Of a stretch of 64,000 bases of DNA, positions 1 to 45,580 are shown piece by piece. A program made the translations under genes and the position numbers. The stretch lies in contig JAJEKV010000002.1 in the NCBI GenBank assembly GCA_021234155.1, positions 20,521,761-20,585,760 of the forward strand. Direction: 5' to 3'. Below the pieces are notes generated by a model that had not been told where the DNA came from, did no database searches, and worked only from the letters and a program-made list of their open reading frames with translations. The stretch comes from Isoetes taiwanensis. Taxonomy: Eukaryota > Streptophyta > Lycopodiopsida > Isoetales > Isoetaceae. Each line of letters starts with the position of its first letter. Position 1 is the stretch's first letter.

Positions 1-1760
1 TAGTTTAAAAATATGCCTTCGATTCTTGACATAAGGAGTTCATCTTATGTAGCAAGAGATGCAGGCAGGTTTTTGGCTAGGGACCTGAGAATTCCAAACT
101 AGGCTGGACCAAAAGCATGGCAGGCAGTGGGTTTTAAAGCAGGATCCAGCAGTTCCAGCAGGTCCCAATATATCTAGGCAGACATTGGAAGGAATGGTAC
201 CACAAAATGAACATCTTATTTGATGGCTTTCTTCAGGCATAACTTGCAGGCATCATACATATTGCCTAACAATTTGGTAAGGTATGTTTCTGACCATCAT
301 TCTGTACATGCCATTCAAGAAGGTGATAAAAGTAATGTCTCTTTTTAAGAAAGTCACAATTGATATTACCTCAAACGTAAGTTTATGTGATTCATCGGTT
401 GTGCATCCCGTGGAGTTCGTCAGCTTCATCGAAAAGGCATATCTACGTGAATGGATCAAATGAATTAGAATGTTATATTCTAAAGTTCCAGCTTTCAATT
501 AATAAAAAACCTCACAAATGAATACAAAACACTTTGTATCCGGGCGGAAATAATAGGTAACTTTATGGTTCAGCAGATAAACTATCCTAAAGAATTGCAA
601 GCAGAAATTTTAGTCTGTGCAAGTATTTGATAAGAATAAATATGCCAGAATATTCTTATCTGCCCAGAATTTTGATGCTAAAAAATTAGTTTGATACAAC
701 CCATTACATAGCAACACAGTCTTGCAATCTCTGAAAGCATGAAGTTTGCCATAGGCCATGAATTGACAGTAAATAAATACCTCTGTATTTGTAAGTCCAA
801 CCCGCAAATCGTTTGACGCATTCAATGGAACAGTCCTGAAAAGACACAAATTAAACAAATGGAGCCGAAAGCATCAAGGTATTTTGATCAGGGGCAGACC
901 CAGACCAAAGTTATGATCGGTCAACTCAACTGCCTTTGGATCTGCAGAAAAAGAAGGAAGATAAAAAAAAGAAAGCAACAACACAGCTTTCCTTGAAGTG
1001 ATGTTGGCCTAAATGTTTTCAAATGCCAAAGTGACAAAAATCGCCATGGCTGCTCTTAATCCACACCGATCTTGCTAAACTAGGCTCTGTGAAGAAATGT
1101 TGCCGTTGCCGTCATCATCTTTGTTGCCGCTGCCATTTACGAATATAGTCCCTCAGAAATTTTATTGTGGAACTGCGATGGAAACGTAGCCATGGCTTCA
1201 AAGCTGTGCCCATGCATCGAAAAACGTAGATATGATGGCAAGAATGGCTTCATAGCTTAGCCACCGGAAACTAGCTCTAGCTTCTTTATGTCTGGGTTCG
1301 CCAAAGTAAGGCAGGCGCTATATAACTATATGTGTTTTGTAGAAGAACTGTGGAACTGTGAGACACGACACCACAAAGAAGCCACAAAATTCAGAGGGGA
1401 AGAAGCGGCGATAGAAGCATAGCCAAGGCTTTAGGAATTTTCTTGTTGAACTACCGTGAGAGCATAGCCATGCCTTCGAACCTCGCTTGCATGTCTTGCC
1501 TAAAAAAGAACCGTACAAAAACGTAGATAATTCCAAAAACCAATTTTACTCTGCATTTTTGACCGGAAAAAAACCGTACAAAAACGTAGATAATTCCAAA
1601 AACCAATTTTACTCTGCATTTTTTGACTGGAAAATAGATATATATAATTCGAAATGACCCTTTTTGGAGCCGGTTTTTTTTTCTAGTAATCATATATATA
1701 GAAGGATAAAATATCTTTGTTTGATCCAATCTAAATGTAGTCGATATTGTGTAAGCAACC
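1..1760. other. Arm flank outside the element; no supported gene
   Basis: This segment is conserved in reverse at 43819-45580. It contains short stretches that look like exons on the minus strand (plus strand in the right arm). One is bounded by TTTTCAG and GAG/GTATTT (right arm about 44748-44807). Another ends with GAG/GTAATA (right arm about 45140-45214). Neither matches a family I recognise, and the reading frames do not join without assumptions. They may be decayed exons of one gene. Confidence 0.4.
1503..1628. repeat. 63-bp tandem duplication
   Basis: Two head-to-tail copies with a 63-bp period, each containing CCGTACAAAAACGTAGATAA and ending near ACTCTGCATTTTT. The same pair is present in the right arm around 43960-44085, so the duplication is older than the arms. 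Confidence 0.85.
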
Positions 1761-1819
1761 CACTATGCTGTAATCGATCAAATTATATATGCCCGAATTT
1801 GGTTAGGGTCCCAAGAAAT

Positions 1820-1912
1820 GGAAACCTCCCAAATTTTTGTTCTTGGAAACCTCCCCAGCTTTCCATGAAGCTTGGAGAGGTTTCCAATTTTGCTAACTTG
1901 GGGAGGTTTCCA
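1820..1912. repeat. Subterminal GGAAACCTCCC cluster, left end of left element
   Basis: Four copies of the 12-bp word: two as GGAAACCTCCCM, then two as GGNGAGGTTTCC. They face each other and could fold. The right-arm counterpart is at 43669-43759. They resemble the transposase-binding repeats next to the ends of Spm-type elements; that role is inferred. Confidence 0.8.
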
Positions 1913-1976
1913 TAGAATCCCCAAAAATCTATTTTAGTTTATGATATTTTTTGATCTATGTTAACAGCCATTCATA

Positions 1977-2285
1977 ATGATCCTAAAGTTAATGTCTACG
2001 GTTCGAATTAATCCTTTTCTATTTTCGTATGCAATTCTATTTATGTTGCATGCTTTCTTTTTTCAGGGCATTCTTGAAGCCATAGCAGGAGCGCCGGATT
2101 TTGACGAGCAGTATAATAGTTTCGATTCCCATTCCGATTTTGAATACCAGTGCCAGGTTTTGAAGACTAGTTGCGATTCTGATTATGAAGACCAGTTGTT
2201 TGTTGAAGGAGAGCTTCGGATTTTGAAGATTGGCCAGCAAAAAGTTCAAAACGGAGTACTCATGGTGTATAGTACGGCTGAATGA
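1977..2285 (+). CDS. Unrecognised 102-aa ORF inside the element, conserved between arms
   Basis: The right arm has the same ORF at 43602-43294 with about ten amino-acid differences and no frameshift. It starts with a hydrophobic stretch (residues 13-30), followed by an acidic region with D/E-F/Y-E-D-Q words. These come from degenerate repeats of TTTTGAAGACCAG that continue past the stop to about 2575. The hydrophobic segment and a TTTTTTCAG just before GGCATTC (2066) suggest the first third may be an intron and the coding exon may begin near 2067. I know no family for it. The open frame may simply reflect low divergence. Confidence 0.3.
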   Translation: MILKLMSTVRINPFLFSYAILFMLHAFFFQGILEAIAGAPDFDEQYNSFDSHSDFEYQCQVLKTSCDSDYEDQLFVEGELRILKIGQQKVQNGVLMVYSTAE

Positions 2286-2575
2286 TCCTTCCTTCTTATT
2301 CTTAGCAGAGAGGCGAAGCTTATTTATTCTTTTTAGTTTGAGCAAAACATTTGCCGCAGAGCAACTTTCTGTTTCTGAGGATTGAATTTTTGTTTGTGAG
2401 AAGCTGGGCTTGGCCGAGCCCCATTTCCTATTTGAAGACCTGCCTCTTATTTCTGATTTCCATGCTAAATCACAGGCCGATTTGAAGATCAGTGCCGATT
2501 TTGAAGACCAGTATGTTGTTTATTGAAGGGAGCTTTGGATTTTGAAGACCAGCTACCTATTTTGAAGATAGATTT
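2085..2575 (+). repeat. Degenerate repeats of a GATTTTGAAGACCAG word
   Basis: The word TTTTGAAGACCAG and variants (TATTTGAAGACCTG, GATTTGAAGATCAG, TTTTGAAGATTGG) recur about nine times at irregular 20-60 bp spacing. Also present in the right arm (about 43020-43500). They lie in the interior side of the element's left third. They could be a second class of protein-binding repeats or a decayed minisatellite. Confidence 0.6.
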
Positions 2576-3114
2576 TGCAACAGTAGTTCTTGTACCTGCT
2601 CTGCAAGGCCTCTCGCTATCTTAAGTTTTCGCTTTCTACTGCTCCTCGCTTGTAATGTTTCTCTCAGGGGCCCATCTCCTCAAGATTGCGATTAGTGGAG
2701 TCTGGAGGCCCTTTTCTTTTACCGGTCCACCATAGCCTCCTCCTCTTTACCATTCTAGGTAGCCAGAACATTCAACTGACATGCTATTCTCATTTAAGCA
2801 CAATTTCATTAAAATGAGAAATTTCGTGATTCCAATTAGGGATGAAAATCCTTTTTAATCCATTTTATGACCATTTTTTGAGCAATTATGGCGCAATTTA
2901 GCAAAAAAAATGCATCTAAAGTGCCATTTATTGGTGCCATTAATATCAGAGAGGCGGGAAAAAAACAACAAAAAAAAAATACTGCAACTTAAGTTAGCAA
3001 GTTTTACCTATTTTACAGGAAGAAGGGCATCATTAACTTCTGAAATTGACAAATTTACACATCAAGAAAATTTGTTTATGAAGCTAAAATAATGAAATTT
3101 GTTGCCGAATTGAA

Positions 3115-3303
3115 TCAATCGCCATTAGTAGGATCATGCTTTTCTTTGCCAACATTCATAAGAATGTCAAATCCTGCCCCACTAAATGCCTCTTCACAAA
3201 GTTGTAAATGATTTTGAATCTCATCGCGACTAAAATCTTCATGGGTACCAAGTTGGACGAAGGTGACTCCACAAAGAAATCTCCCCGGCATACCCGAACG
3301 CAT
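3115..3303 (-). pseudogene. Possible captured gene fragment inside TIR element
   Basis: A 62-codon open stretch with ordinary protein-like composition, including GRFLCGVTFVQLGTHEDF and LCEEAFSGAGFD. It sits within otherwise low-complexity sequence. I do not recognise the family. Non-autonomous DNA transposons often carry host exon fragments, which is one explanation. There is no sign of a complete gene. Confidence 0.3.
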
Positions 3304-3349
3304 TTGCTATAGCAGACCAAATGCATGCCGGTGAATGCATCCTCAACAT

Positions 3350-5330
3350 ATTTTTTTTGCTGTTAGTGAATGCAAATGGCGCCATGGCCCATTTGCATCC
3401 TCAAGATGTTTGAAATGGCACCTTGAGGATGCAACATGGTGCCATTTACACCCCAAAGACACCAAAAAATTTCCACCCAAAAAAAGGGTGTTGGGGTGCA
3501 AATGGCGCCAGGGTTGGGTGCAAATGAAGCCATGGCGCCATTTGCACATTGCAAAAAAAAAAAAAATGAAATTTTTTTGAATTTTTTTTTGTTCTTGGGT
3601 AAAATAAATGGCGCCATGGCCCATTTGCATCCTCAAGGTGCCATTTCCAAACATGATGAGGCATCCACAAAGATGCATTTGATATAACATTCGATCAAAT
3701 GCATGGTGGTGAATGCAAATGGCGCCATGGCTTTTGCATTCCTCAACATGCATTTAATAAAGCAAATCATGCTAAGGATGCATGCCATTTGCCTCCTCAA
3801 TATGCATCAAGCAAACATATATTCAAGAAACTGGTGCTATTTGACTAGGAAAACTAAAAAATCAAGTAAAAGAACACCTACCTTTGCCTTGGAGACTTGC
3901 CTTCATGATTCTTGATATCTTTAGTGTCTAGAGTGATGAAAACAAAGGCGCTTAAGCGCTGGCGCCGCATCGCACTAGGCGCTTAGGGGCCATCTAGCCA
4001 GCAGGCGCCGGGCGCTGGCGCCAGGGTCCAATGGGCCATCTAGCGGCCAGCAGGCATCGAAATGAAGCTGGCGGCGCCGGGCGGCAGCGGCGGGAAAGGG
4101 GGGATGTGGCGGCGCTAAAGCGGGGATGTAGGCGGCGCTAGGCCATCTAGCAGCAGGCGCTGGCGCTAGGTCCAATAGGCCATCTAGTAGCGGCGCCGGC
4201 GGCAGCGGTCGGGCGCCGTAGTCGCAGCGGCGGAAGCAGGCGGAATGTAGGTGGCGCTGGCGGGTGGGTATGGCGAAGCTCGTGGAAGGCGAGCGTAAAT
4301 TTAAAAATGCCCGCCCAAATTTGAAACCCCTCCGCCCGCCCAAATTTGAAAGCCCTCCGCCCGCCCAAATTTGAAATTCAAAATTTGAAATCCCAAATTT
4401 GTTGTTGCTGCTCGACATATCATTTCTTTAGGCGCTTGTATAGATCCTTCTATAGGCGGATGCAGGGTCTTCGATGGTTCCATACCGATCGGCACTTCTA
4501 GGCGGCTTCTTGCAGTCATTTATTTTCAGGTAACATTAGCTGTTTGCACAGGGTTTTTTGGGCGCTTCTTTTTGAGGCGCTGCAATATTCTTACAAGATC
4601 CATATATACTCCGGGCCGATAGTTTTTTCACCAAAATGGTGACCACCATATCCGTAAGTCTTTCTATATGCATCGCCTTTTTGTTAGAGCCATTCATCAC
4701 ATGTATACATCCAAATGGAGCCATTTGGGGCACCATTTGAGCCTTCAAATGGCTTCATGGCGCCATTTGGGGGTGCCAGGGCAGTATACCACCCAAATGG
4801 CCCATTTGGAGGGTGCCGCCAGGGGGTAGGTATACCCCCCAAATGGCGCTATGGAGCCATTTGGGGTGCCATTTGGAGCCCTCAAATGGCTCCATGGCTC
4901 ATTTGGGGTGCCGTGAGGGGCGTGTATACCCCTCAAATGGTGGCATTTGGGGTGCCATGGGGGCAGGTATACCCCCCACATGGCACCTTGAGGATGCAAA
5001 TGGCGCCATAAATGGCCATGGCGCCATTTGCATCCCATTTTTTTTTTTTTTTTTTTTTTTTATTTTTTTTTTTTTTTTTTTTTTTTTTTGGGTAGGCATA
5101 CCCCAAATGGCGCCATTTGGGGAGGTATACCCCATTTCGGTTAGTTGCTAGGGGAGTATATATACCCCCAAATGGGGGGTTGGGGAAGGGAGGGGGAGGG
5201 GGAGGGGGCCAGGTATACCCCCGGGGGCACCCCCCATGGAGCCATTTGGGGAGCGCCAACGAGGGCAATTATACATGCCATTTGGGGTAAAGAGAGCCAC
5301 CCTTCATGGCAAGGATGTTGATCCATTGAA
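3350..5330. repeat. Palindrome-rich ATGGCGCCAT / CCAAATGG arrays
   Basis: The words AAATGGCGCCATGG, CCATTTGCATCCTCAAG and GGTATACCCCCCAAATGG recur many times on both strands at 3360-3730 and 4710-5280. ATGGCGCCAT is itself a perfect palindrome, so the arrays can form many hairpins. Every frame is open by chance in places, giving spurious ORFs rich in W, H and P. Between the two arrays lies a GC-rich block (3940-4300) rich in GCGCTGGCGCC-like words. Confidence 0.85.
5037..5089 (+). repeat. Poly-T tract
   Basis: About 50 nearly uninterrupted thymines with a single A. It may mark an old reverse-strand poly(A) insertion or simple slippage within the TIR element. Confidence 0.9.
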
Positions 5331-5466
5331 TTTAGCAAATGCAGATCACGCAAATCTGTGGTGCCTATTGAACTTCCAATCATATCTTTGGGGTGCGGAT
5401 AACATTGGTGAAGCAAAGAGGTGCATTTATTCAGTTGCCAAAGAAGGATGTGAAACTGGTTGAGGC

Positions 5467-5725
5467 TTGTATGCTATAAACATATGTATGATACATGTGT
5501 ACTACTCACGTGTATCATACACCTGCAGAAGGTCTATAAATCTATTCATGTATCTTAAAAATATATGTATGATACATGGGTGTCATACCTGTGTACCTAA
5601 CACATGCAGAAGGTGTATGATACCGAGTAAATATGTTTTCTACATATTTCATGGTGGTGTATACAACCCCTGCATAAGGTCTATGATACAGGGTACTCAA
5701 CCCCTGCATAAGGTCTATACAAAAA
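5467..5725 (+). repeat. Imperfect tandem repeats of a TGCATAAGGTCTATGATAC-like unit
   Basis: The unit (ACCCCTGCATAAGGTCTAT and variants such as ACACCTGCAGAAGGTCTAT) recurs at least four times at 40-80 bp spacing near the right end of the TIR element. It makes a long but meaningless open frame. Confidence 0.65.
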
Positions 5726-6673
5726 CCCCCAAAATAAAAAAATTCCAGTTTACTAAAAATTTTTCCATTATAATGAAATTGTGCTTATTTCTGCATTTTG
5801 TTTCTTTTTTAACGCCCAAATCAGAAAGTTTTTTCAAGAACCAGTTTCGGATTTACAAGCCCGGTTTTCCAGTGCCCAAGGAGAATTTGAAACAGAATTT
5901 TTACAAATTGTTCCAGAATTTAGACAGCTGTGGTTACTGATTTTGTTGCAAGTTTGAGTTCTTAACAGGTAAAATATTGTTATCTTCTATTATTTCTTTC
6001 TTAAAAAATGAGATAGCAGATTTGTTTGAAGATTTATTTGTAAGTGATCATCCGGTCATCACAGTCAAGAGCTCAAGGAACTTTCCCACTAGAGTGGCTG
6101 GTGTTCTTCTTCTGCAAACAGGGTTTTCTTTTTTTGAGAAACCTTCCAAAATTTGTTATAGAGAGAAACCTTCTAAAATTTGTTATAGAGGAATTGGCTA
6201 TTCTTGTTTTCTGAGAAACCTTTGTAATACAAGAGAATTATCCATTCTTGTAATTTTTATGAATAGTTATGCTACAGCATTTTTCTCGACATTGTTTATC
6301 TCAATCCCAAATGAATAGTGCTTTCCACAAGTTCCAACAACTCTAAATGAATATTTTGTCTTGTCTGATTTTGTTGCAATGGGTAATTCCTTCTTTCTCT
6401 CATTTTGTATTTGTGTCAAAATAAAGATCTAAAGTACTAGTTTATCCTGAACTCGTGATTGCAAATTGATGCTTGAGGACTTCCTATTCTCATTATATGT
6501 TTTGTTGAGTTCAATCTATCTTTATCATGATAGTTATAAAATCATAGTTGCAATTTGGTAAACGAGGAATTCCGTTCTCTTAATCTATTTTGTGTTTAAG
6601 TATGCCTCTTCATTTAGTATTCGTCAACATTTTACAATAGTCATGCTTCTTCTTCTTATGTCTTACCTTAGGT

Positions 6674-7857
6674 ATGGATAGGGAGGGCCAGCCTCGAGAG
6701 GCCGAGGGCGAGGTACCACCACCACCACATGCACCGCAGATTAGGGCGTTCTTTGTGGGTAAGTGTCGTGTACCTAGGATCTTAGAGTTCGTCATGCATA
6801 TATTTTTTAGAATATAATGTTAGATACATAGACTTAGGTCTCAGGTTTATTAATTTAGGGATGTGCTCCACGGATGTTGGAGGATCAGACGGTTGTTGAC
6901 AACCATCCCTGGGTTGCCAACAAGATAAGAGGATAGGTGGTTTTGTGTGCACGAGGGGTGTTCACACACCCCCCGTGGAGAGGGGCTATATGGGCTTGTT
7001 GTTGAATGGTGCTGCAACACGTAAGACCAAGCATCCTGAGCTTCCTTGGGTTGCTCGTCGTCCGGGTGCACGGAGGACACGGCCACTTGATCTTGAGGAT
7101 GAGGCCGCACAGGAGAGGGAGAGGGAGAGGCGCCGAGCTCGCGGACAGGAGAGGTGCACTAGGCCAGAGTATCTTGACTGCCAGCAGGATAGTCATTACA
7201 GAGCGAGGCTACAGAGACAGGTCGTGGCCGAGTGGGGGAGGAACACGAGGGTGTACTCTCCTCAGGAGTTAGCTCAGAGATATCCACAGGGGGCTCACAA
7301 AGGGGATAGCGTAATCGTGATCGTGCTCTAGTGCGCATAATGGAGACGAGGATGCAGAGGCTCGTTTTTGTGAGACCCAGAGTAGACTCTTGGCCCGTGA
7401 TGGCCATATCGATGTAGAGGAGGGAGAGGCTCCACACGAGAGACATGCATGGCAGGTTGAGGATTTACACGGGAGAGATGGAGTAGTAGTTGGAGCAGCA
7501 ATCAGTACCGCATGTGAGCCTGGTGGGATTGATTTGGGAGCCACGGTGGATCTTGCGTCACACGTAGGGATAGGGCTTGAGACACGTCCATTTGATTCTT
7601 GCACCTCCACTGTCCCACCCGCTGATGTAGACCTCCACATCGGGACGCCGCCCGAGGAGGTTAAGGGCCCTTCATTACCCACTTCCTGTATTCCCATTCT
7701 ACCGTTTACCCTTCGTACCACCTCCCTCCCTGACTTTCCTCCTAGACCACCTTCCCATGCCACGTCTTCACATGTCCCTCCACTCTTCGATGGAGGGCTG
7801 GACAGAGTCTTGACGCATTGCACCATCAAAGAGTATGATGCTTCCGTGAAAATGTAA
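6674..7857 (+). pseudogene. Unrecognised element-encoded gene, left copy (broken)
   Basis: A probable first exon starts at ATG 6674 (MDREGQPREAEGEVPPPPHA) and ends at a GTAAGT donor at 6759. Open sequence resumes at 6945-7331 with a basic, Arg/Glu-rich segment (ELPWVARRPGARR, then EAAQERERERRRAR) and a QVVAEW...PQELAQRYPQG motif. A frameshift after that motif is repaired in the right arm. A downstream frame (7390-7857) continues to a TAA after EYDASVKM. The first exon here is 85 bp against 89 bp in the right arm. The right-arm copy shows that these pieces once formed a longer frame. I cannot name the family; a DNA-binding or accessory protein of the host element is possible. Confidence 0.4.
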
Positions 7858-8153
7858 CCTTCCCTTGAGTTGATTGAAGGTATAGGTGGATATGATCCAA
7901 CAGAGTCTCCCTCATTCAAATGATTGTCATGATCACCACTGGGTGTTACATGGTCTTCATCATCTACATCCTCAAAACCTGCAGCATTGTCAACATTATC
8001 AAAAGTGAAATCACTTACAGTTGCTTCTGAATCATATAGGGACGAATCAGTGGAGATATCATCTTCAACTCCCTCATACACGTTACGCTCCAAATCCATG
8101 AGATAAATAACAACATCAAAGGAACGAAAGATGAAATAGTCGATGGGAATCAC
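7269..8153 (-). CDS. Unrecognised acidic ORF, antisense to the element gene, left copy
   Basis: A 294-codon open frame starting just inside the GGAAACCTCCCC cluster. The first 90 residues are acidic (DLERNVYEGVEDDIS, then FEDVDDEDHVTPSGDHDN). The rest overlaps the plus-strand ORFs in antisense. A second Met (MDLERNVY, at about 8100) may be the real start. The N-terminal third is conserved in the right arm at 40326-40649; beyond it that copy is frameshifted. Only one of the two antisense frames is likely to be genuine over the overlap. The N-terminal part is the most plausible coding portion here. No family recognised. Confidence 0.3.
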   Translation of the reverse strand: MIPIDYFIFRSFDVVIYLMDLERNVYEGVEDDISTDSSLYDSEATVSDFTFDNVDNAAGFEDVDDEDHVTPSGDHDNHLNEGDSVGSYPPIPSINSREGYIFTEASYSLMVQCVKTLSSPPSKSGGTCEDVAWEGGLGGKSGREVVRRVNGRMGIQEVGNEGPLTSSGGVPMWRSTSAGGTVEVQESNGRVSSPIPTCDARSTVAPKSIPPGSHAVLIAAPTTTPSLPCKSSTCHACLSCGASPSSTSIWPSRAKSLLWVSQKRASASSSPLCALEHDHDYAIPFVSPLWISLS

Positions 8154-8304
8154 GGCAAATGGATGAATCCGTGGATGAAGGAAGAATTCATAGGGACGAT
8201 TTACTTGAAGAAAAAGCTTGGATGAATTCGTTGATAAAAGAAGAACTCAAAGAGACGATTTGCTTCAAGAAATAGCTCACTTTGAAATTTTATAGACATT
8301 TTGT

Positions 8305-8664
8305 GGAAACCTCCCCTAGTTTCTTTGGAAAGTTGGGGAGGTTTCCATAAAATAAATGTTGGCAACCACCAATGGACTGCAACGCACGAGGACCGAGATG
8401 CACGGGGGCTAGTCTTGGTCTTCGTGCAAATTTAGAGAGCCTTTTCTTTTTTTCTTTTGTGGAAACCTCCCCACCTTTCCATGGAAACCTCCCCTGTTTT
8501 CTTAATTGGAAACCTCCCCAGATCATCCAAGAAAGCTGGGGAGGTTTCCACGGAAAGGTGGGGAGGTTTCCATGGAAACCTCCCCTGTTTTCTAATATGG
8601 AGAAAGTTGGGGAGGTTTCCAGGGAAAGTTGGGGAGGTTTCTAGGGAAAGTTGGGGAGGTTTCC
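8305..8664. repeat. Subterminal GGAAACCTCCCC cluster, right end of left element
   Basis: About eleven copies of GGAAACCTCCCC or its reverse GGGGAGGTTTCC within 360 bp, many arranged as inverted pairs, for example a copy directly followed by its complement near 8560-8584. One copy is degenerate, with TTTCT in place of TTTCC. The array sits just inside the inferred element end and just upstream of the acidic minus-strand ORF, so it could also act as a promoter. Confidence 0.85.
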
Positions 8665-8847
8665 ATTGGAGCCCAACCCAAATCGGACGTAGAAAAACCC
8701 ATCGTGCTGTAATGGCATAGTTTTAATTGCGTATTTAAATATTAATATTATTCAGTTGGACTGCATGGATGTTTGCATGAAGAAAAACCAAGCATTTGTT
8801 AGATATGGAACAGTTACTATAGATTGGCAATCTCGATAAATGTCAAC

Positions 8848-9013
8848 CTTGGAAAATGAGATTTGACAGTCAATTTATATCACAATACACTGCTGTTATA
8901 AAAGAATAGGAGAGATAAAAGCAAGCACAACTTGGAAAATGAGATTTGACAGTCAGTTTATATCACAATACACTGTTGTTATAAAAGAATAGGAGAGATA
9001 AAAGCAAGCACAA
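8848..9013. repeat. 83-bp tandem duplication
   Basis: Two direct copies starting CTTGGAAAATGAGATTTGAC, at 8848 and 8931, differing at two or three bases. The pair is also in the right arm (39477-39642), so it predates the inverted duplication. Confidence 0.95.
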
Positions 9014-10027
9014 CTTCTTTAGTCCTTAACCAAGACAAACTCATCCATAATGACATTATGAACATTGGACTTACAAGTTTATTAGCCTAGCATCAGATGT
9101 TATTTTATGGAAGGCATAAAATGAGAAATGCTGGAGGAGGCATACAAGCTTCTGTGTAAGTCAATCATTAAAATAAATTTGCAATCACCGCACGATACGT
9201 GCAGCATGATTGCTGGATATTAACAAGTTCCAATCATCAAACGCTGAGAATGTATTTTGAATAAGAACTGGAGTCTTTTCCATCTTTTATTTAGCTTTCA
9301 TGCCAAATTAGATTCCATTCACTTATGCAATTGAAAGGTCTTCATGCAATGTAGGATATTATGGACCCATTTATTTGATCTTCCATACAGGCTTGGATAA
9401 CCCAAATTATCATCACTCCAAAACAGTTAATCTTTGGCTATTGCAAAAACTATAAGCCTTTTGTCTTTTCAGCCTCAGCTCACTTTCTTACCATCCTCAG
9501 TGGTTGAGCTTATTCCAAACCATCTGTTCCTTGTCAATACATATGTCTAAATTTGGACAGGATCTGCCGGAGTTGGACAACACAGATTCTTCACCAGAAA
9601 AGAGCAAGAAAAGCAAAACAGCTACAGATTTTTGAGATTAAAGAGGGAAGCATTACAAACTCTGATGCAAACAGAGGCCTGTATGCATAGCCAAATTCAA
9701 CCAGCAGACTATATAGAGCCTGTAAATTCCAAATCCACTGCACCCTTTTGGAGATTATACCATCTATACCAAAGGAATCTTAACACCTTTCTTGATCTCT
9801 CCTAACCCGCTCAAGACCGAATAGTAACTATGATTCCCGGATCATAATAATTGTGAATCTAAAGAGGCACTGAATTATGGAAAGACTGGTGCAGCCACTA
9901 CTACCCTTACCTAGTTTTACAATTTAAGCATTCTTCATTTTCAGCACTAAAACAGTAATTAAAGGCACCACTTATACTAATGTTCATCCAATTACACCTG
10001 TCTTGCTTAGTGTAAAGATGTAGGTCA
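9014..10027. other. Arm flank; nothing recognised
   Basis: AT-rich sequence conserved in reverse at 38468-39476. No open frame of note and no recognisable domain, repeat or RNA gene. Confidence 0.6.
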
Positions 10028-10304
10028 AGCATAAAAGTGAGCTAGAAAGATGCGAAAAACGCTTTTCCGTGCTGGAGAATGTCAGGTCATAATGATAGCT
10101 TCATCTTTTGTTTCTCTTTCAATTACATCCCTTTTTTGTCAAGGTAGAACCATATCCACGCATCTATTTAAATGCAATTATGTGGATGGGATTGGTTCGA
10201 GTTCTATACATGGGCAAACGTGGTCTTAAATCTGAAATAAAACTCATTTCAAGTTGCAATCTTGCATACATATCAGTAGCTGATTTCAATTTAATATTGC
10301 ACAG

Positions 10305-10498
10305 GCCTGCATATGTTGACGAGTATGAGTCACTGAAGAAGGATTTGCAAGGCCTTTTCACAATCTATCTTGAGAAATTCCATAATTTACAGTGGCTTGA
10401 GAGTCAGCTGAAAAAGAACATAACTTGCAGGAACAAGAAAAAGTTGAAGAGCCTTATGCTTCAATGAGACGATTATAACAACAATTATATATAATGAG
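10305..10498 (+). pseudogene. CLUAP1/IFT38-like exon remnant
   Basis: CLUAP1 (IFT38, qilin, DYF-3) is a subunit of the IFT-B complex needed to build cilia and flagella. The exon follows a TTGCACAG acceptor. It reads RPAYVDEYESLKKDLQ, then IYLEKFHNLQWLESQL, matching the family's coiled-coil segment (RPxFMDEYEK...YLEKFxNLxYLEQQL pattern). A one-base frameshift near 10410 moves the continuation into another frame (EHNLQEQEKVEEPYASMRRL). A TAA stop at 10476-10478 then interrupts a run of Q codons before a GAG/GTTAG donor. Retained splice sites mean the copy arose from genomic DNA. I see no other exon of this gene nearby. Confidence in the family is good; a functional gene is unlikely. Confidence 0.75.
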
Positions 10499-10673
10499 GT
10501 TAGTATATATACTGAGAAATATGAGGAAGAAATAATACTAAAAATAATGCTGATAAGCTAAGAGAAGCCTAGCTCACCTTATAGAACATGAGTCCCAATG
10601 CAACCTCTCAGGCTAACAATGAATATTTTGTTGCATTACGTAATGCTCCGGTAATAAAGCTTTGGTCATAAGG

Positions 10674-14172: not shown

Positions 14173-14439
14173 GTTGAAAGGGGGATTAGATTATCTATCT
14201 AAGATATAGATTCTACAAAGTTTGATCAACATGATTTTCTAGACTTGTCCAAATGTGCCAAGCATTAGCAGTACCTCCAACACATATTACAATATCTCCA
14301 ACACATATTTCATCGTTAGATTTGTGATATGCTTTATAGGATGCAGGTGTAGATGCATGTGGATTTTAATGTGACTTCTGATTCGAAAGTTGATGGTTAG
14401 AACATACTAATATGCTAGTTTATGTGGTCATCTTAAGAT

Positions 14440-32869: not shown

Positions 32870-35800
32870 AGGTGACCTCGCAGGTCCAAGATTCTCTCAA
32901 TATACGACCCGGGGCACGCATCGACGGGTGTGTTCATCAGCAAATGCAAGGGCAAGTCCGCCGCACTAAGGGGAGCGATCCGCCCCGGATCCGACCGAAC
33001 GCCGGGCAACTCCGGAAAGTGTGAGACTCATCCTCAATGGCACCCGCTTGACAAAGACCGACAGAGCTCGGTCTGGCGGGGCTCCCCAATCCACCGCCTG
33101 CCTCGATGCGAAGATGGTGGGCACTGCGGGCGAATGGAGGCAATGAGTCCGCACTTTTCGGGCGCAAATTGGAACGCAGGTAGAGGCTGTGGGCCCGCTA
33201 ACACTCTGGGGTTGATGTGCTCCTTGTAATGGGCCATTTTGACCTGCTCTAGAGCCGGGGTCCCGAGCTTGCCAAGGAAACAAGCGTCTATGTACTCCCG
33301 CTTGGCCGTCCACGACGGGCCACAGGCCCACCTGCGCGATCTGTGCTCCTCGCGTTCCATCCGGCCGAACCAATCTCTCTTACCCCTCCAACAGGCCCTA
33401 AGCTCCGCCAAGGGACCCATGGCCACAAGTAAGCCCAGTGCGAGGAGCCGAGCATCACCCATAGTAACCACTTTACGAAAATAGACGATGTGTCTATCAA
33501 GGGCTGCCGGGAAGCGGCAAGAATCCATTTCATGCAGCGAGACCGATAGGGGATCAAGGTTTCACCCCAAGTGCCCGTGCCAAAAAATGCCTTCACACTG
33601 CTCCAAGTCATTCCAGGTCGCCAAGAGACGCATCGCCCCAAACCTCGACCCGCATGTAAGGACAGCTCGACTGGCCCTAATGTATGTGACCGATGGCCCC
33701 AATCATAGAGCTCGGCCGGTGATCGCGGTTTTGCATGGCATAAAGCGCTTCAGCTCTGCTTGTCACCGCAGCGCGATAGACGCCCCAGCAGAGCGAGGAG
33801 GGGAATTCCACCCCTAGGTACTTGTAGGTGGGCGTGACGCCCACAAACCGGCCCCCATATGTGAGTGCAGGAGGCATGGGGTGACGGAGGAGGATATGAG
33901 AACCACCTCGTCTTGGCCGATTGACGCTGCATGTCTCAGAGCCCCGACAAAAATGTGTCTAGGGCATCCAGTGAGACCGCATAGCTTCGGGTGTGGGCCA
34001 GCAGCCAACATCGTCCGATAGATGAGCCGGCGGATGACCTGGTGCAAAAAGTCGTATGCCATCCCCCCATGCTCGCAAGAAGCCGGGCTCTAATCCGATC
34101 AATGTAGAGGCCAAAAGTGTTGGCGAGGGGGGCAACCACGCCGACCCCGATACTACTGGTGAATGCTTGGCCCGCGCACATCCCGCCAAAACAACTCTCA
34201 TACAACCTCAGATATGGCATTCGCGCAAAAGCGGTAAGGAGCCCCAGCTTGACGCAGTTTAGCCTATGCACTTTTCCCGGGAACCGTGACAAAAGCCTTC
34301 GTGGAAGTCCACAAAGCGAAGAATACAAGTCCCGGGCGATGATTTCTTTCATCTTCAATCAGCGTCTTCCGCAGTGGTGAAGATATGGTCAATCGCTGAG
34401 TGGCGGGGTCCAAAGCCCGCCAGCGTGAGGGCTCGCGACATCCGCTGCCTACCCCGGGTCAATCAACCGCTGCTCGAGAATGCCACCAACAGCTTTGGCA
34501 AATAATTTAATCGGACCATGATCATCCGTGAATTGGTCGGACAAAGGTGGGTCGCCAGCCTTGTGAATGGGAACAACCCTGCTTGTGGTCCATTGTCGGG
34601 AGACCTTCCCCGCAATGCTATGTTGAATGTAGTGAGGACCGCAGACAGGCCAACTGTCCTGCCCATTTGAGTAACTCGCCCCGCATACCATCGAGGTCAC
34701 CGCATTCCCATTAGCCTGGCCGCTGTGCCCTCCTCAACATTCTCGCCCACGAAACCAATGGGGCCATCCTGTGGGGGTATGGGCGTCACGCTGCCCCCTC
34801 GGGCGGGTCATAGAGCCGCCGCAGCAAGCTCTTAATCGGGCCGGGTGTGATGTCCCTCAGAGGGTGGGCTGGCCTTCAAGCACTCAAGGCCAAAAGGTTC
34901 GAGGATGAGTGTCCAGCGTGCCTAACATCTCCCCGATGCCCGGCGGCAAGGTACCGCCGCCTTTGTGTCCTTCGGATGGGCGCCAGATCGTGGTGGCCCG
35001 CAAGCGGGTACTGGATCCGTAATGTGACGGAGCTGCCGCTATGCGTTTTTACTCCGCATCAAACCATCGGGTACGCTGAATGTTGTCGGACCCGAGCGGC
35101 GGCAGCGGGAAGGTCTGCCAAAGCACCCGGTCCCCAGATCCCGTAATAGCGAAGTCACTACCGCCATAATCTAGTCTCAATTGAGGACGGCGAGGGGTGG
35201 CATAGTGGGGGTTCCGCGGCTTGCCAAACCAGGTCCAAATAAAGTGGGAGGTGATCTCGAGTCGACCTCCCTCATCCCGACCGCCTCTGTGCCCACCCCG
35301 AAATGACCGATGAGATGCATATCTTGGCGCAACTTCTACGAGCACATAGTCCACCACACTAGACCCTCCCCTCGATTGTCCCGCCCCATGTGCACTTGCG
35401 AATCGGGCCACCGTGAAAGGCCATTGCAAATTATCAAGTCAAAAATGCCACATAGCAGAGCAATCGCCTCGCCAAAGCGAAAGACACTGGCGTCATCCGA
35501 CCCTCGTGGCCAGGTTGTTTCGCGGGCGAAGGCCGCAGGACATCGCCGGCCGAGGGGGTCAAGTCGCATGGGCCGCTCTACTCCGTCCCGTGCATTGAAA
35601 TCTCCAAGAAGGACGACCCTACCCAACTAGCTGGTGCCGGCCAGATGTCATCATATAGATCGACATAAGGGTCCATCCTATCCGCGACGGGATGGCTGCG
35701 ATAGAAGGTGCTTTCTCGCATGAGGGAAATAACAGCGCCGTAAAAAGAGGGTTGCCATCGGTATTATGCACACAAACCCACAAGTACGGTTGTGTCCGTC

Positions 35801-36060
35801 TCCTGCCTCTCGGAGGGTAACCGAATGTGCCAAGGTTGTCCTGTAGTAGCAAGCCACTCCACCATGACCCCTCGGCCCCATGCAGTATTGAAGACCGAGA
35901 AATTTTGGTAACCCTAAGCAGATCAGTCGCATGTGCCCAAAGATGCTCCCATGTCTCCACGAAAAGATGAGATCCATATCTACCGCCACGGAGTTCGGGA
36001 CTATCCCCTTCCGCCAAGGGAAGCCTCGACAATTCCATGAGACCACCCGAGACACAATTC
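32870..36060 (-). pseudogene. LINE B ORF2: endonuclease and reverse transcriptase, broken
   Basis: Endonuclease start: VVSWNCRGFPWRKG (about 36055-36010), then RGHGGVACYYRTTLAHSV and VVLLGDFNARDGVERP (35620-35575), the GDFN motif of APE-type nucleases. RT: VVPIHKAGDPPLSDQ then FAKAVGGILEQRL (34600-34455), LYIDRIRARLLA (about 34110-34075), and the YADD region near 34010, where one base is missing. Then YKYLGVEFPS (about 33825) and the C-terminal GEPRQTELC...EDESHTF...SCPAFGRIR motif (33090-32990). This enzyme nicks target DNA and copies its own RNA there. Frameshifts throughout make it inactive as written. Confidence 0.85.
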
Positions 36061-36099
36061 CTATTTGTCGGCCAGGGATGGTATGCGCACTGAGTCACT

Positions 36100-37695
36100 T
36101 GGGGAGGACTCCGGGAAGCAGAGGCCGAAAGTGAGAAGTAGATGGAGCTGAGGCAAAGATGTGGCCAGAGGGCGGGCCGTGAGGGAGCAGGGAGTAGGAG
36201 CAGGAGAAGGGGGGGTGGGTAGGAGAAGCGAGAAGCGGGGGGCGTCGCGGCGGCCGGTTGGGGCCGGGGTCCGCAGCACGAGCGTGTCGGGTTTAAAAAT
36301 GTGCATCCCCGGCCGAACCAATCTGCGGCACCCCCGGTGGCGGTAATGCCTCTGACCTTGACAAGCTCCCTCGCCTCAAGCCTCCCCGCTGCACGGGTGT
36401 GAGGTCCCGGCCCACGCATGTGGATGTCCCCTTCAAAGATCCGCCCCCGGGCGCAATATGGCATCACGCACTGCATCCGCAACCGTGAATATGACAATGC
36501 GGTCACGCGACGGGTTTGCCCCATGGACGGGCCTTCGAGAAATGTGAACTGCCCCGGAATGTCATCCGATCGAGAATGTGTGTTCTGGATGTTGTGGGCG
36601 CGACTCTCCCCTCGCCGCTTCGCATGCCTCAACTACCGGACAGGGCTCCTCTCCAAAGGCCTCGAGTTCTCAAGGGCTCGCGTCAAAGGTGGGCGTAGGT
36701 CCGAAGTCCCCGTGCCGGGGGGGTGGTGGTGGCCGGGATGGCGGGGAGGCCGGAGTGTGGCCGGGATGGCGTGGAGTGGCTGGAGGGCTGGCAAAGATTA
36801 AGTGGGGCCTCGGCCGGCGCGGGAGGCTGTGGGGGTAGTGGTCTCGAGCCGCTTTCCCCAGAAGCCGGGAGCACAAATTTTGCGTGGCCTCGGGCCGCCA
36901 TCTCCCCGCCGCACCGGGCCGCAAATTTCACTATGAACCTTGTGGGAGACCGCTCGCTCGGGATGGCTGCCCGCACCCCCGAACCCCGTGCCTGAAAGTA
37001 GCGAGCGCGCTCGAGCCCCAGACACGCGCCCGAGGGCCGGGCTTGCTGTTCCAATCTTACTCTCAAGATCCCGGCCGTATGGTCGCCCGCAAGAGCAACA
37101 AGCTCCTCGTGCCATGATGGTGGTCGCCTCCACCTCTCGACCGAAGCCGGTGACACCGTGACCATCGTCTCTCGCATTCCCGGCGCTCCCTCTCCCCGTG
37201 TCATGGTGTCCGTGAGTGATGAACCACGAGTCTAGGCGGGCCGCATGTCGGCCGACCTCCTGGCCTCCCTTTGTTGCCGCCGGTGTGCCGGGCCAAGGCC
37301 ATCTTCCACATGCGGCGTCGCGGGTCTCCGACTGTGATGCGGTTCTTCTCGACCACGATTTGCCTTTTGAGCACATGGGATGCCGAGGACTCCATCTCCA
37401 CTGCCATGCCAGCCAGGCGGGCACTGTTAGCCTCAATATGAGCACTGTTAGCCTCCACTCCCGCTTTGACGTGGCTCCAATTCTCTGCCGAGGCAGGAGT
37501 TCCTATGTGGTCTGAGCAATCAATCCCTTCCAGCCGGGCTGGCCTCGCTGAGGGGGCCTTAGCCTTAGCCCGAGCCTCCTTCTTCATGGAGGATGACTCT
37601 CCCCTGTCCATGATGGCTGATCGGGACCGTTTGTGCGGCGGCCCCTCGCCTTGGGTTTCCCAGACCGGCCCATCTTCTGTGGCCATGACTTCCAA
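36100..37695 (-). pseudogene. LINE B ORF1 (RNA-binding protein), broken
   Basis: Starts MEVMATEDGPVWETQ at 37695. The N-terminal 160 codons are basic and Ser-rich (KRSRSAIMDRGESSSMKKEA), followed by a helical segment with short repeats (EANSAHIEANSARLAGMAVE) typical of a coiled coil. Downstream frames contain ALSYSRLRMQCVMPYC and RIFEGDIHMRGPGPHT. These resemble an RRM-like segment, with a DAV.DAIL...IF pattern readable by shifting frame. ORF1 proteins of this kind coat LINE RNA. Family assignment rests mainly on position upstream of the endonuclease. Confidence 0.6.
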
Positions 37696-37735
37696 GGAGA
37701 AGGTACTCTCTTCACAGTTGCTCGACCATTTTCTG

Positions 37736-38467: not shown

Positions 38468-39822
38468 CTGCAGACCTACATCTTTACACTAAGCAAGAAA
38501 GGTGTAATTGGATGAACATTAGTATAAGTGGTGCCTTTAATTACTGTTTTAGTGCTGAAAATAAAGAATGCTTAAATTGTAAAACTAGGTAAGGGTAATA
38601 GTGGCTGCACCAGTCTTTCCATAATTCAGTGCCTCTTTAGATTCACAATTATTATGATCCGGGAATCATAGTTACTATTCGGTCTTGAGCGGGTTAGGAG
38701 AGATCAAGAAAGGCGTTAAGATTACTTTGGTATAGATGGTATAATCTCCAAAAGGGTGCAGTGGATTTGGAATTTATAGGCTCTATATAGTCTGCGGGTT
38801 GAATTTGGCTATGCATACAGGCCTCTGTTTGCATCAGAGTTTGTAATGCTCCCCTCTTTAATCTCAAAAATCTGTAGCTGTTTTGCTTTTCTTGCTCTTT
38901 TCTGGTGAAGAATCTGTGTTGTCCAACTCCGGCAGATCCTTTCCAAATTTAGACATATGTATTGACAAGGAATAGATGGTTTGGAATAAGCTCAACCACT
39001 GAGGATGGTAAGAAAGTGAGCTGAGGCTGAAAAGACAAAAGGCTTATAGTTTTTGCAATAGCCAAAGATTAACTGTTTTGGAGTAATGATAATTTGGGTT
39101 ATCCAAGCCTGTATGGAAGATCAAATAAACGAGTCCATAATATCCTACATTGCATGAAGACCTTTCAATTGCATAAGTGAATGGAATCTAATTTGGCATG
39201 AAAGCTAAATAAAAGACGGAAAAGACTCCAGTTCTTATTCAAGCGTTTGATGATTGGAACTTGTTAATATCCAGCAATCATGCTGCACGTATCGTGCGGT
39301 GATTGCAAATTTATTTTAATGATTGACTTACATAGAAGGTTGTATGCCTCCTCCAGCATTTCTCATTTTATGCCTTCCATAAAATAACATCTGATGCTAG
39401 GCCAATAAACTTGTAAGTCCAATGTTCATAATGTCATTATGGATGAGTTTGTCTTGGTTAAGGACTAAAGAAGTTGTGCTTGCTTTTATCTCTCCTATTC
39501 TTTTATAACAACAGTGTATTGTGATATAAACTGACTGTCAAATCTCATTTTCCAAGTTGTGCTTGCTTTTATCTCTCATATTCTTTTATAACAGCAGTGT
39601 ATTGTGATATAAATTGACTCTCAAATCTCATTTTCCAAGGTTGACATTTATCGAGATTGCCAATCTATAGTAACTGTTCCATATCTAACAAATGCTTGGT
39701 TTTTCTTCATGCAAACATCCATGCAGTCCAATTGAATAATATTAATATTTAAATACGCAATTAAATCTATGCCATTACAGCACGATGGTTTTTTCTACGC
39801 CCGATTTGGGTTGGGCTCCAAT

Positions 39823-40174
39823 GGAAACCTCCCCAACTTTCCCTGGAAACCTCCCCAACTTTCTCCATATTAGAAAACAGGGGAGGTTTCCATGGAAACC
39901 TCCCCACCTTTCTGTGGAAACCTCCCCAGCTTTCTTGCCCCAGCTTTCTTGGATGACCTGGGGAGGTTTCCAATTAAGAAAACAGGGGAGGTTTCCATGG
40001 AAAGGTGGGGAGGTTTCCACAAAAGAAAAAAAGAAAAGGCTCTCTAAATTTGCACGAAGACCAAGACTAGCCCCCGTGCATCTTGGTCCTCGTGCGTTGC
40101 AGTCCATTGGTGGTTGCCAACATTTATTTTATGGAAACCTCCCCAACTTTCCAAAGAAACTAGGGGAGGTTTCC
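39823..40174. repeat. Subterminal GGAAACCTCCCC cluster in right-arm element
   Basis: Inverted counterpart of 8305-8664. Spacing differs slightly: a short duplication of the AGCTTTCTTG spacer near 39928-39950 separates two copies here. Confidence 0.85.
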
Positions 40175-40325
40175 ACAAAATGTCTATAAAATTTCAAAGT
40201 GAGCTATTTCTTGAAGCAAATCGTCTCTTTGAGTTCTTCTTTTATCAACGAATTCATCCAAGCTTTTTCTTCAAGTAAATCGTCCCTACGAGTTCTTCCT
40301 TCATCCACGGATTCATCCATTCGCC

Positions 40326-40649
40326 GTGATTCCCATCGACTATTTCATCTTTCGTTCCTTTGATGTTGTTATTTATCTCATGGATTTGGAGCGTAACGTG
40401 TATGAGGGAGTTGAAGATGATATCTCCACTGATTCGCCCCTATATGATTCAGAAGCAACTGTAAGTGATTTCGCTTTTGATAATGTTGACAATGCTGCAG
40501 GTTTTGAGGATGTAAATGATGAAGACCATGTAACACCCAGTGGTGATCATGACAATCATTTGAATGAGGGAGACTCTGTTGGATCACACCTATACCTTCA
40601 ATCAACTCAAGGGAAGGTTACATTTTCACGGAAGCATCATACTCTTTGA
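40326..40649 (+). CDS. Unrecognised acidic ORF, right-arm copy
   Basis: Same N-terminal acidic sequence as 8153-7269 (left arm), with four or five substitutions, then a frameshift after residue 90 relative to the left copy. It reads inward from the 39823-40174 repeat cluster, as expected for a gene whose promoter lies at the transposon end. Confidence 0.3.
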   Translation: MIPIDYFIFRSFDVVIYLMDLERNVYEGVEDDISTDSPLYDSEATVSDFAFDNVDNAAGFEDVNDEDHVTPSGDHDNHLNEGDSVGSHLYLQSTQGKVTFSRKHHTL

Positions 40650-41799
40650 TGGTGCAATGCGTCAAGACTCTGTCCAGCCCTCCATCGAAGAGTGGAGGGA
40701 CATGTGAAGACATGTGAAGACGTGGCATGGGAAGGTGGTCTAGGAGGAAAGTCAGGGAGGGAGGTGGTACGAAGGGTAAACGGTAGAATGGGAATACAGG
40801 AAGTGGGTAATGAAGGGCCCTCAACCTCACTGGGCAGCGTCCCGATGTGGAGGTCTACATCAACGGGTGGGACAGTGGAGGTGCAAGAATCAAATGGACG
40901 TGTCTCAAGCCCTATCCCTACGTGTGACGCAAGATCCACCGTGGCTCCCAAATCAATCCCACCAGGCTCACATGCGGCACTGATTGCTGCTCCAACTGTG
41001 TAAATCCTCAACCTGCCACGCATGTCTCTCGTGTGGAGCCTCTCCCTCCTCTGCATCGATATAGCCATCACGGGCCAAGAGTCTACTCTGGGTCTCACGA
41101 AAACAAGCCTCTGCATCCTCGTCTCGTATCTGCACTAGAGCCTGAATGCGGTCTGTGGTCCACTGTGAGCCCCCCTGTGGGTATCTCTGAGCTAACTCCT
41201 GAGGAGAGTACACCCTCGTGTTCCTCTCCCACTCGGCCACGACCTGTCTCCGTAGCCTCGCCCTGTAATGACTATCCTGCTGGCAATCAAGATACTCTGG
41301 CCTAGCGCACCTCGCCTGTCCGCGAGCTCGGCGCCTCTCCCTCTCCCTCTCCTGTGCGGCCTCATCCTCAAGATCAAGTGGCCGTGTCCTCCGTGCACCC
41401 GGCCGACGAGCAACCCAAGGAAGCTCAGGATGCTTGGTCTTCTGGTGCTTCTGCGCACCATTCAACAACAAGCCCATATAACCCTCTCCACGGCTGAGGG
41501 TGTGTGAACAACCCTCGTGCACACAAAACCACCTATCCTCTTATCTTGTTGGCAACCCAGGGATGGTTGTCAACAACCGTCTGATCCTCCAACATCTGTG
41601 GAGCACATCCCTAAATTAATAAACCTGAGACCTAAGTCTATGTACCTAACATTATATTCTAAAAAATATATGCATGACGAACTCTAAGATCCTAGGTACA
41701 CGACACTTACCCGTCAGGCGCAAACGTCCTAATCTGCGGTGCATGTGGTGGTGGTGGCACCTCGCCCTCGGCCTCTCGAGGCTGGCCCTCCCTATCCAT
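40637..41799 (-). pseudogene. Unrecognised element-encoded gene, right copy
   Basis: Counterpart of 6674-7857. The first exon is 41799-41711, followed by GTAAGT. The main open stretch is 41522-40968 (184 codons): a PELPWVARRPGARR motif, a strongly charged helix-like region, YLDCQQDSHYRARLRRQVV, then QWTTDRIQALVQIRDEDAEA, which the left copy has lost. A frameshift near 40990 leads to the C-terminal frame (41116-40637), rich in Pro/Ser/Thr. The predicted exon 1-exon 2 junction does not keep the frame with the nearest AG acceptor, so the splice model is uncertain. No family recognised. Confidence 0.4.
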
Positions 41800-43668
41800 A
41801 CCTAAGGTAAGACATAAGAAGAAGAAGCATGACTATTGTAAAATGTTGACGAATACTAAATGAAGAGGCATACTTAAACACAAAATAGATTAAGAGAACG
41901 GAATTCCTCGTTTACCAAATTGCAACTATGATTTTATAACTATCATGATAAAGATAGATTGAACTCAACAAAACATATAATGAGAATAGGAAATCCTCAA
42001 GCATCAATTTGCAATCACGAGTTCAGCATAAACTAGTACTTTAGATCTTTATTTTGACACAAATACAAAATGAGAGAAAGAAGGAATTACCCATTGCAAC
42101 AAAATCAGACAAGACAAAATATTCATTTAGAGTTGTTGGAACTTGTGGAAAGCACTATTCATTTGGGATTGAGATAAACAATGTCGAGAAAAATGCTGTA
42201 GCATAACTATTCATAAAAATTACAAGAATGGATAATTCTCTTGTATTACAAAGGTTTCTCAGAAAACAAGAATAGGTAATTCCTCTATAACAAATTTTGG
42301 AAGGTTTCTCTCTATAACAAATTTTGGAAGGTTTCTCAAAAAAAGAAAACCCTGTTTGCAAAAGAAGAACACCAGCCACTCTAGTGGGAAAGTTCCTTGA
42401 GCTCTTGACTGTGATGACCGGATGATCACTTACAAATAAATCTTCAAACAAATCTGCTATCTCATTTTTTAAGAAAGAAATAATAGAAGATAACAATATT
42501 TTATCTGTTAAAAACTCAAACTTGCAACAAAATCAGTAACCACAGCTGTCTCCTTGGGCACTGGAAAACCGGTCTTGTAAATCTGAAACTGGTTCTTGAA
42601 AAAACTTTCTGATTTGGGCAACTATGAATTGGCCAGACTAAATCCGAAGCTGAGAACATGGTCTGTGAGTCAGCTTGGTCTGTGAATCAGCGTGAAAATC
42701 AGCATTTACATAGTCTCTTACACCCTTCTTGCCCACAATCCTAACAAAAAAATCAGCATTTACATGGCGTTAAAAAAGAAACAAAATGCAGGAATGAGAA
42801 TAGCATGTCGGTTGAATGTTCTGGCTACCTAGAATGGTAAAGAGGAGGAGGCTATGGTGGACTGGTAAAAGAAAAGGACCTCCAGACTCCACTAATCGCA
42901 ATGCAGAGATGGGCCCTGCCGAGAACAGTACAAGCAGAGCAGAGTAGAGCAAAACTTCGCACAGCAGAGGCTTTGCAGAGCAGGTACAAGAACTACTGTT
43001 GCAAAATCTGTCTTTAAAATAGACCGCTAGTCTTCAAAATCCAAAGCTCCCTTCAACAAACAACATACTGGTCTTCAAAATTGACACTGATCTTCAAATC
43101 GGCCTGTGATTTAGCATGGAAATCAGAAATAAGAGGCAGGTCTTCAAATAGGAAATGGGGCTCTGCCAAGCCCAGCTTCTCACAAACAAAAATTCAATCC
43201 TCAGAAACAGAAAGTTGGTCTGCGGCAAATGTTTTGCTCAAACTAAAAAGAATAAATAAGCTTCGCCTCTCTGCTAAGAATAAGAAGGAAGGATCATTCG
43301 GCCGGACTATACACCTTGAGTACTCCGTTTTGAACTTTTTGCTGGCCAATCTTCAAAATCCGAAGCTCTCCTTCAACAAACAACTGGTCTTCATAATCAG
43401 AATTGCAACTAGTCTTCAAAACCTGGCACTGGTATTCAAAATCGAAATGGGAATCGAAACTTTTGTACCGCTCGTCAAAATCCGGCGCTCCTGCTATGGC
43501 TTCAAGAATGCCCTGAAAAAAGAAAGCATGCAACAGAAATAGAATTGCATACGAAAATAGAAAAGGATTAATTCTAGCCGTAGACATTAACTTTAGGATC
43601 ATTATGAATGGCTGTTAACATAGATCAAAAAATATCATAAACTAAAATAGATTTTTGGGGATTCTATG

Positions 43669-43759
43669 AAAACCTCCCCAAGTTAGCAAAATTGGAAACC
43701 TCCCCAGGCTTCATGGAAAGCTGGGGAGGTTTCCAAGAACAAAAATTTGGGAGGTTTCC
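43669..43759. repeat. Subterminal repeat cluster, outer end of right-arm element
   Basis: Inverted counterpart of 1820-1912, with four copies of the 12-bp word. One is altered to GAAAACCTCCCC. Confidence 0.8.
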
Positions 43760-44587
43760 ATTTCTTGGGACCCTAACCAAATTCGGGCATATATAATTTG
43801 ATCGATTATAGCATAGTGGGTTGCTTACACAATATCGACTACATTTAGATTGGATCAAACAAAGATATTTTATCCTTCTATATATACGATTACTAGAAAA
43901 AAAAAACCGGCTCCAAAAAGGGTCATTTTGAATTATATATATCTATTTTCCAGTAAAAAATGCAGAGTAAAATTGGTTTTTAGAATTATCTACGTTTTTG
44001 TACGGTTTTCTCCGGTCAAAAAATGCAGAGTAAAATTGGTTTTTGGAATTATCTACGTTTTCGTACGGTTCTTTTCCGGCAAGACATGGGCGCAGGTTCG
44101 AAGGCATGGCTATGCTCTCACGGTAGTTCAACAAGAAATGGCTATGCTTCTATCGCCGCTTCTTCCCCTCTGAATTTTGTGGCTTCTTTGTGGTGTCATG
44201 TCTCACAGTTCCACAGTTCTTCTACAAAACACATATAGTTATATGGCGCCTGCCTTACTTTGGCAAACCCAGACATAAAGAAGCTAGAGCTGCATACTGC
44301 TAGTTTCCGGTGGCTAAGCTATGAAGCCATTCTGGCCATCATATCTACGTTTTTCGATGCATGGGCACAGCTTTGAAGCCATGGCTACGTTTCCATCGCA
44401 GTTCCACAATAAAATTTCTGAGGACTATATTCGTAAACGACAGCGGCAACAAAGATGATGACGGCAAGGCAACATTTCCCCACAGAGCCTAGTTTAGCAA
44501 GGTCGGTGTGGATTAAGAGCAGCCATGGCGATTTTTGTCACTTTGGCATTTGAAAACATTTAGGCCAACATCACTTCAAGAAAAGCT

Positions 44588-44625
44588 GTGTTGTTGTTGT
44601 TGTTGTTTTTTTTTTTTTTTTTTTT
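44588..44625 (+). repeat. (GTT)n and poly-T tract
   Basis: Five GTT units followed by about 22 thymines. The equivalent site in the left arm (about 955-990) has only an A-rich stretch, so the run expanded in the right arm. Confidence 0.85.
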
Positions 44626-45580
44626 CCTTCTTTTTCTGCAGATCCAAAGGCAGTTGAGTTGACCGATCATAACTTTGGTCTGGGTCTGCCCCTGATCAAA
44701 ATACCTTAACGCTTTCGGCTCCGTTTGTTTAATTTGTGTCTTTTCAGGACTGTTCCATTGAATGCATCAAACGATTTGCGGGTTGGACTTACAAATACAG
44801 AGGTATTTATTTACTGTCAATTCATGGCCTATGGCAAACTTCATGCTTTCAGAGATTTCAAGACTGTGTTGCTATGCAATGGGTTGTATCAAACTAATGT
44901 TTTAGCATTAAAATTCTGGGCAGATAAGAATATTCTGGCATATTTATTCTTATCAAATACTTGCACAGACTAAAATTTCTGCTTGCAATTCTTTAGGATA
45001 GTTTATCTGCTGAACCATAAAGTTACCCATTATTTCCGCCCGGATACAAAGTGTTTTGTATTCATTTGTGAGGTTTTTTATTAATAGAAAGCTGGAACTT
45101 TAGAATATAACATTCTAATTCATTTGATCCATTCACGTAGATATGCCTTTTCGATGAAGCTGACGAACTCCACGGGATGCACAACCGATGAATCACATAA
45201 ACTTACGTTTGAGGTAATATCAATTGTGACTTTCTTAAAAAGAGACATTACTTTTATCACCTTCTTGAATGGCATGTACAGAATGATGGTCAGAAACATA
45301 CCTTACCAAATTGTTAGGCAATATGTATGATGCCCGCAAGTTATGCACAAGAAAGCCATCAAATAAGATGTTCATTTTGTGGTACCATTCCTTCCAATGT
45401 TCGCCTAGATATATTGGGACCTCTTTGGAACTGATCCCGCTTTAAAACCCACTTCTGCCATGCTTTTGGTCCAAAATTTAGTTTGGAATTCTCGGTCCCT
45501 AGCCAAAACTCCTGCTGATCTCTTGCTACATAAGATGAACTCCTTATGTCAAGAATCGAAGGCATATTTTTAAACTAAAA

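Follow-up and report, generated by a model that had tools for sequence, protein, structure and literature searches.

Inverted arms in an Isoetes taiwanensis contig as probable members of a segmental-duplication cluster that includes a larger palindrome

Introduction

What kind of structure gives rise to two long, similar arms in opposite orientations, separated by 28.4 kb of TE-rich DNA, in the genome of the lycophyte Isoetes taiwanensis? A sequence-only reading had described such a pair as young, near-identical arms that might form a hairpin or the ends of a giant element. We analysed the 64,000-nucleotide window that contains them (C1018:20521761-20585760, where C1018 is contig JAJEKV010000002.1), its surroundings on the same contig and the whole genome (1,658,258,908 bases in 1110 contigs).

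Results

Extent and identity of the inverted arms

BLAST comparison of the window with itself matched positions 1-2794 with the reverse of 45577-42793, and 5814-10026 with the reverse of 42619-38473, both at 94.5-94.6% identity including gaps. The outer limits were set after adding 30 kb on the left, and the inverted arms were present in that comparison as well. The left arm (block X, + strand, 1-10026 in the window) spans C1018:20521015-20531786, or window positions -745 to 10026; its start lies 745 bp off the window, and the sequence-only reading had likewise placed the outer limit outside the window. The right arm (X', the inverted copy of block X, - strand) spans C1018:20560233-20568083 (window 38473-46323). 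The claimed inner junctions hold (10026/10027 and 38472/38473), and the right arm ends at 46323 rather than at 45580. The inverted repeat is genuine and lies well outside what chance would produce.

The two arms differ at 207 of 7618 aligned sites, i.e. 97.3% identity by substitutions (K2P 0.028, left-only insertion excluded). The proposed ~99% identity applies to positions 8761-9110 (347/350) and not to the whole arm. ‘Near-identical’ and ‘young’ are too strong as descriptions. If substitutions accumulate at about 7e-9 per site per year, a value assumed from Arabidopsis that may not hold for Isoetes, a K of 0.028 would correspond to about 2 million years, an age that is young only in relative terms.

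The arm ends have a low copy number in the genome. The middle of both arms is occupied by an older dispersed element (2416-8708, + strand), with copies on C1052, C1040, C90 and other contigs. In the left arm it is interrupted by a 3.0-kb block, a TE-like dispersed repeat (about 2796-5786, + strand) with >20 genome copies at 81-94% identity, which is missing from the right arm. A six-frame scan of the left arm detected no Pfam domains. Short self-complementary repeats (GGGAGGTTTCC units) are found within the arms at 8460-8665.

Other copies of the arm and its borders

A whole-genome search for block X yielded three local copies and a partial one on another contig, hence at least four; partial copies are carried by C1056 and C952. 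The third local copy (hereafter copy A, C1018:20394408-20398319) lies 130 kb to the left. It is devoid of most of the older dispersed element, and the joint shows an overlap of 1-2 bp. We considered whether A might represent the empty site of a transposable element and rejected this because of that overlap, the lack of a target duplication and the ~200 bp of the element that A has kept. The missing arm middle is a deletion in A.

Over 2954 sites shared by the left arm (L), the right arm (R) and A, L and R agree against A at 41 sites, L and A against R at 57, and R and A against L at 31. K2P distances are 0.026 for L-A, 0.031 for L-R and 0.034 for R-A, and 0.036-0.039 to the C1056 copy. As judged from these patterns, the relations are star-like, with the left arm slightly nearer to A, and the left and right arms form no special pair. 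This argues against a joint origin of the two arms, or their homogenisation, as a hairpin.

The outer border (20521015/20568083) is crossed unbroken by A (C1018:20398026-20398319) and by C1056:15980425-15986290, and it is therefore the point at which the right arm was cut off. No terminal inverted repeats (TIRs) or target duplication (TSD) were seen in the border sequences. At the inner border, the right arm, A and the C952 copy pass together into a further block, P, and the left arm joins block Y within an exon of CLUAP1, which is split by the junction at 10026/10027. No rightward continuation of the right arm was found within 24 kb. A possible continuation of block M in the expected orientation is present at C1018:20698021-20701320, part of which is dispersed repeat.

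These borders bear on the proposal that the arms are the ends of a giant transposon or TIR element. The two inverted copies do have sharp common borders, and the breakpoints adjoin transposable elements. Nevertheless, two other copies traverse the outer border, neither border displays a TIR or TSD, loop and arms occur apart nearby and in other orders, and the left arm has no transposase domain. We regard a giant element as extremely improbable.

Sequence between and beyond the arms

From the left arm inwards, the window contains blocks Y3 and S (together 10027-16408), P' (17000-38472) and then X', the right arm. Y3 (10027-12286, + strand) is a copy of a palindrome block, Y, described below, and carries a truncated IFT38/CLUAP1 fragment (Pfam PF10234) at 10303-10419. 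S (12287-16408, + strand) is an inverted copy of C1018:20458297-20463558, the spacer of that palindrome, and harbours a decayed LINE reverse transcriptase at about 12.9-14.2 kb. P' (+ strand) copies C1018:20388254-20394407 in direct orientation. It has large segments that are either extra or retained, among them a Ty1-copia element with LTRs at 27595-27946 and 32488-32836 and a GC-rich element at 33806-37695. No host gene was found in P' in a scan of 16800-21799. The GC-rich element (~60% GC in surroundings of 40%) has a second copy in direct orientation at 56978-60767, 78-79% identical to the first.

Copy A lacks a 10-kb stretch that holds a copia element. It probably lost this stretch by deletion, since the two LTRs differ by a K of 0.066, more than the divergence of P and P' (0.005-0.017).

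The cut end of the right arm adjoins transposons (46317-50739, - strand), namely a 570-bp repeat (46317-46886) and a CACTA/tnp2 element (46881-50739). Within the latter, an insertion of ~2.05 kb (48306-50360), absent from the other copies checked (L012, L013 and L014), is mostly a TTTCCC-type pyrimidine tract, with 90% C+T over 48441-50240.

A larger palindrome next to the window

The left arm of the pair turned out to be the distal end of a larger palindrome that spans 20394408-20531786, mostly outside the window, with its centre near C1018:20.461 Mb, just to the left. Its left arm (C1018:20394408-20458297, about 64 kb) and right arm (C1018:20463362-20531786, about 68 kb) are separated by a spacer of about 5.1 kb. 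They are colinear in blocks X, M, Z and Y (Y1/Y2), and only M (20492141-20520832) is in direct orientation in both, which corresponds to one internal inversion of 28.7 kb. Its two joints, at 20398319 and 20433379, are the pair that a two-break inversion produces, with a loss of about 12 bp from X and about 8 bp from Z and ~1 bp of overlap. The inversion is in the left arm, because C1056 shows the uninverted joint.

The palindrome arms are interrupted by different insertions, of about 10.2 kb (20434886-20445094) and 14.6 kb (20475527-20490134). Their divergence averages about 2.3% over about 36 kb aligned, and is about 2-3% overall. The comparison of M leaves out 20419000-20425674 (6.7 kb) of the left arm; 20410000-20416169 aligns with 8% differences, above the rest of the palindrome.

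Such arms could in principle be a conserved palindrome maintained by gene conversion between its arms, as happens on sex chromosomes. Block divergence is patchy, and the longest run without differences between the left and right arms of the pair is 715 bp, compared with a mean of 215 bp after shuffling (0 of 2000 shuffles reach 715 bp); this run is compatible with some gene conversion. However, these two arms are not each other's closest relatives when A is considered, TE content differs between arms, and a divergence of 2-3% is unlike the >99% identity among the four main palindrome arms of willow (PMC7023750). Maintenance by conversion is thus very improbable.

The duplication cluster

Beyond the palindrome, the order Y3-S-P'-X' directly repeats the order Y-S-P-X found far to the left, at C1018:20380102-20398319. 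Local duplicates make up 106 of the 186 kb of sequence compared (about 57%), and block Y has at least five copies locally. The copies are >1 kb long and >90% identical, are not accounted for by one TE family, and form a mosaic in which single copies have junctions of their own. Copy pairs diverge to a similar extent, mostly by 0.01-0.05 in low-copy blocks. Between blocks, divergence ranges from 0.5% to 8%, a spread that a single event without conversion would not explain. One pair of segments, 20380102-20382018 and 20456327-20458297, differs by 0.7%, far below the other block pairs, in line with recent duplication or conversion.

A rival reading is an assembly artefact, in which alleles or chimeric nanopore foldback reads would have been joined as false inverted copies. 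The published assembly of I. taiwanensis (1658.30 Mb, 204 scaffolds and 909 contigs; PMC8566536) consists of nanopore contigs and Bionano scaffolds, a type prone to uncollapsed haplotypes and foldback chimeras. Purge Haplotigs is, however, cited in the assembly paper (PMC8566536), and foldback reads would yield arms that are identical once polished, in contrast with the 2.8% divergence and arm-specific TE insertions seen here. The number of copies (three or more of X locally, five or more of Y) and the lack of N runs also speak against an artefact, which we consider unlikely.

Genes in the palindrome

Each palindrome arm contains a pyruvate decarboxylase gene and pieces of IFT38/CLUAP1. The pyruvate decarboxylase-like genes, at C1018:20497620-20501750 and 20404053-20408189, are in block M; they code for an enzyme of the thiamine-diphosphate type, and its best relatives among solved structures are pyruvate decarboxylases. 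Five exon-bearing frames were compared between the arms, and all are open in both. Over 662 codons they show 7 synonymous and 8 nonsynonymous differences, too few for a firm word on constraint. A further copy is found at C477:45867-49612 (88%). The CLUAP1/IFT38 exons are in block Y, and fuller copies are present at C1018:20737049-20738698 and C1037:10332826-10334505. IFT38 is a flagellar transport protein, which fits a plant with swimming sperm.

This gene content would allow for a functional scenario. The gene-bearing palindrome would lie on a non-sex chromosome and would have been retained in this aquatic lycophyte because it raises the dose of pyruvate decarboxylase, with which ethanol fermentation begins, for life under water. 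We consider such selection quite unlikely.

Discussion

The reader's pair of arms is neither a stand-alone hairpin nor a giant element. The arms are very probably two of at least four copies of block X in a segmental-duplication cluster of some 360 kb at C1018:20.380-20.743 Mb, generated by tandem duplication of a unit and inversion of a run of units. The cluster itself is an already known kind of structure. The earlier idea that a segmental event is required holds, with arms that reach beyond the internal elements. By contrast, roles of the arms in hairpin formation, extrusion or double-stranded RNA and silencing are unlikely in our analysis, because the loop between them is 28.4 kb long.

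We infer a succession of events and a route of break repair from how the copies are ordered and oriented, how far they diverge and where their breakpoints lie. A unit Y-S-P-X-M-Z of some tens of kb would have been duplicated in tandem, and one run of units would then have been inverted, leaving a large palindrome beside a further unit, Y3-S-P'-X'. The left arm would be the X that ends the right arm of the palindrome, and the right arm the X of the next unit, in the opposite orientation. End joining or template switching probably repaired the breaks, given the short overlaps, without long homology, at the joints that were read. Later TE insertions and microhomology deletions would have worn down the copies, with gene conversion patchy at most.

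An ordered map of a duplication hub thus replaces the lone ‘hairpin’, and the window-limited view had caught just the end of a far larger palindrome. If the assembly holds, the locus provides a lycophyte example of complex palindromes akin to those of willow sex chromosomes, and both of its arms carry pyruvate decarboxylase genes that appear to be open.

Among known systems, the Arabidopsis Cvi VIM4-VIM2 inverted repeat yields siRNA, and a 2.8-kb deletion, needed there to shorten the distance between the arms, joins the genes, making read-through transcripts possible (PMC13213937). Both loci have two inverted copies in a plant genome; unlike VIM4-VIM2 (PMC13213937), the Isoetes arms are set apart by a TE-rich loop of 28.4 kb, and the arm that was scanned contains no recognised gene. 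The complex W palindromes of Salix purpurea are alike in architecture, with several arms of about 14-73 kb at 96-99% or higher identity and four main arms at >99% (PMC7023750). They share with the Isoetes cluster adjacent palindromes, arms of tens of kb, several copies of one block in either orientation, indels in the arms, LTR elements and duplicated genes inside (PMC7023750). However, the Salix arms show evidence of conversion and sit in a sex-determining region (PMC7023750), whereas the Isoetes arms, at 97-98% identity, are on the whole without arm-specific homogenisation. The cluster resembles the tandem and inverted segmental-duplication clusters of plants in its local copies, mixed orientations, mosaic borders, gene fragments and short junction overlaps, and relative to these only its gene content, pyruvate decarboxylase and IFT38/CLUAP1, is particular to the Isoetes locus.
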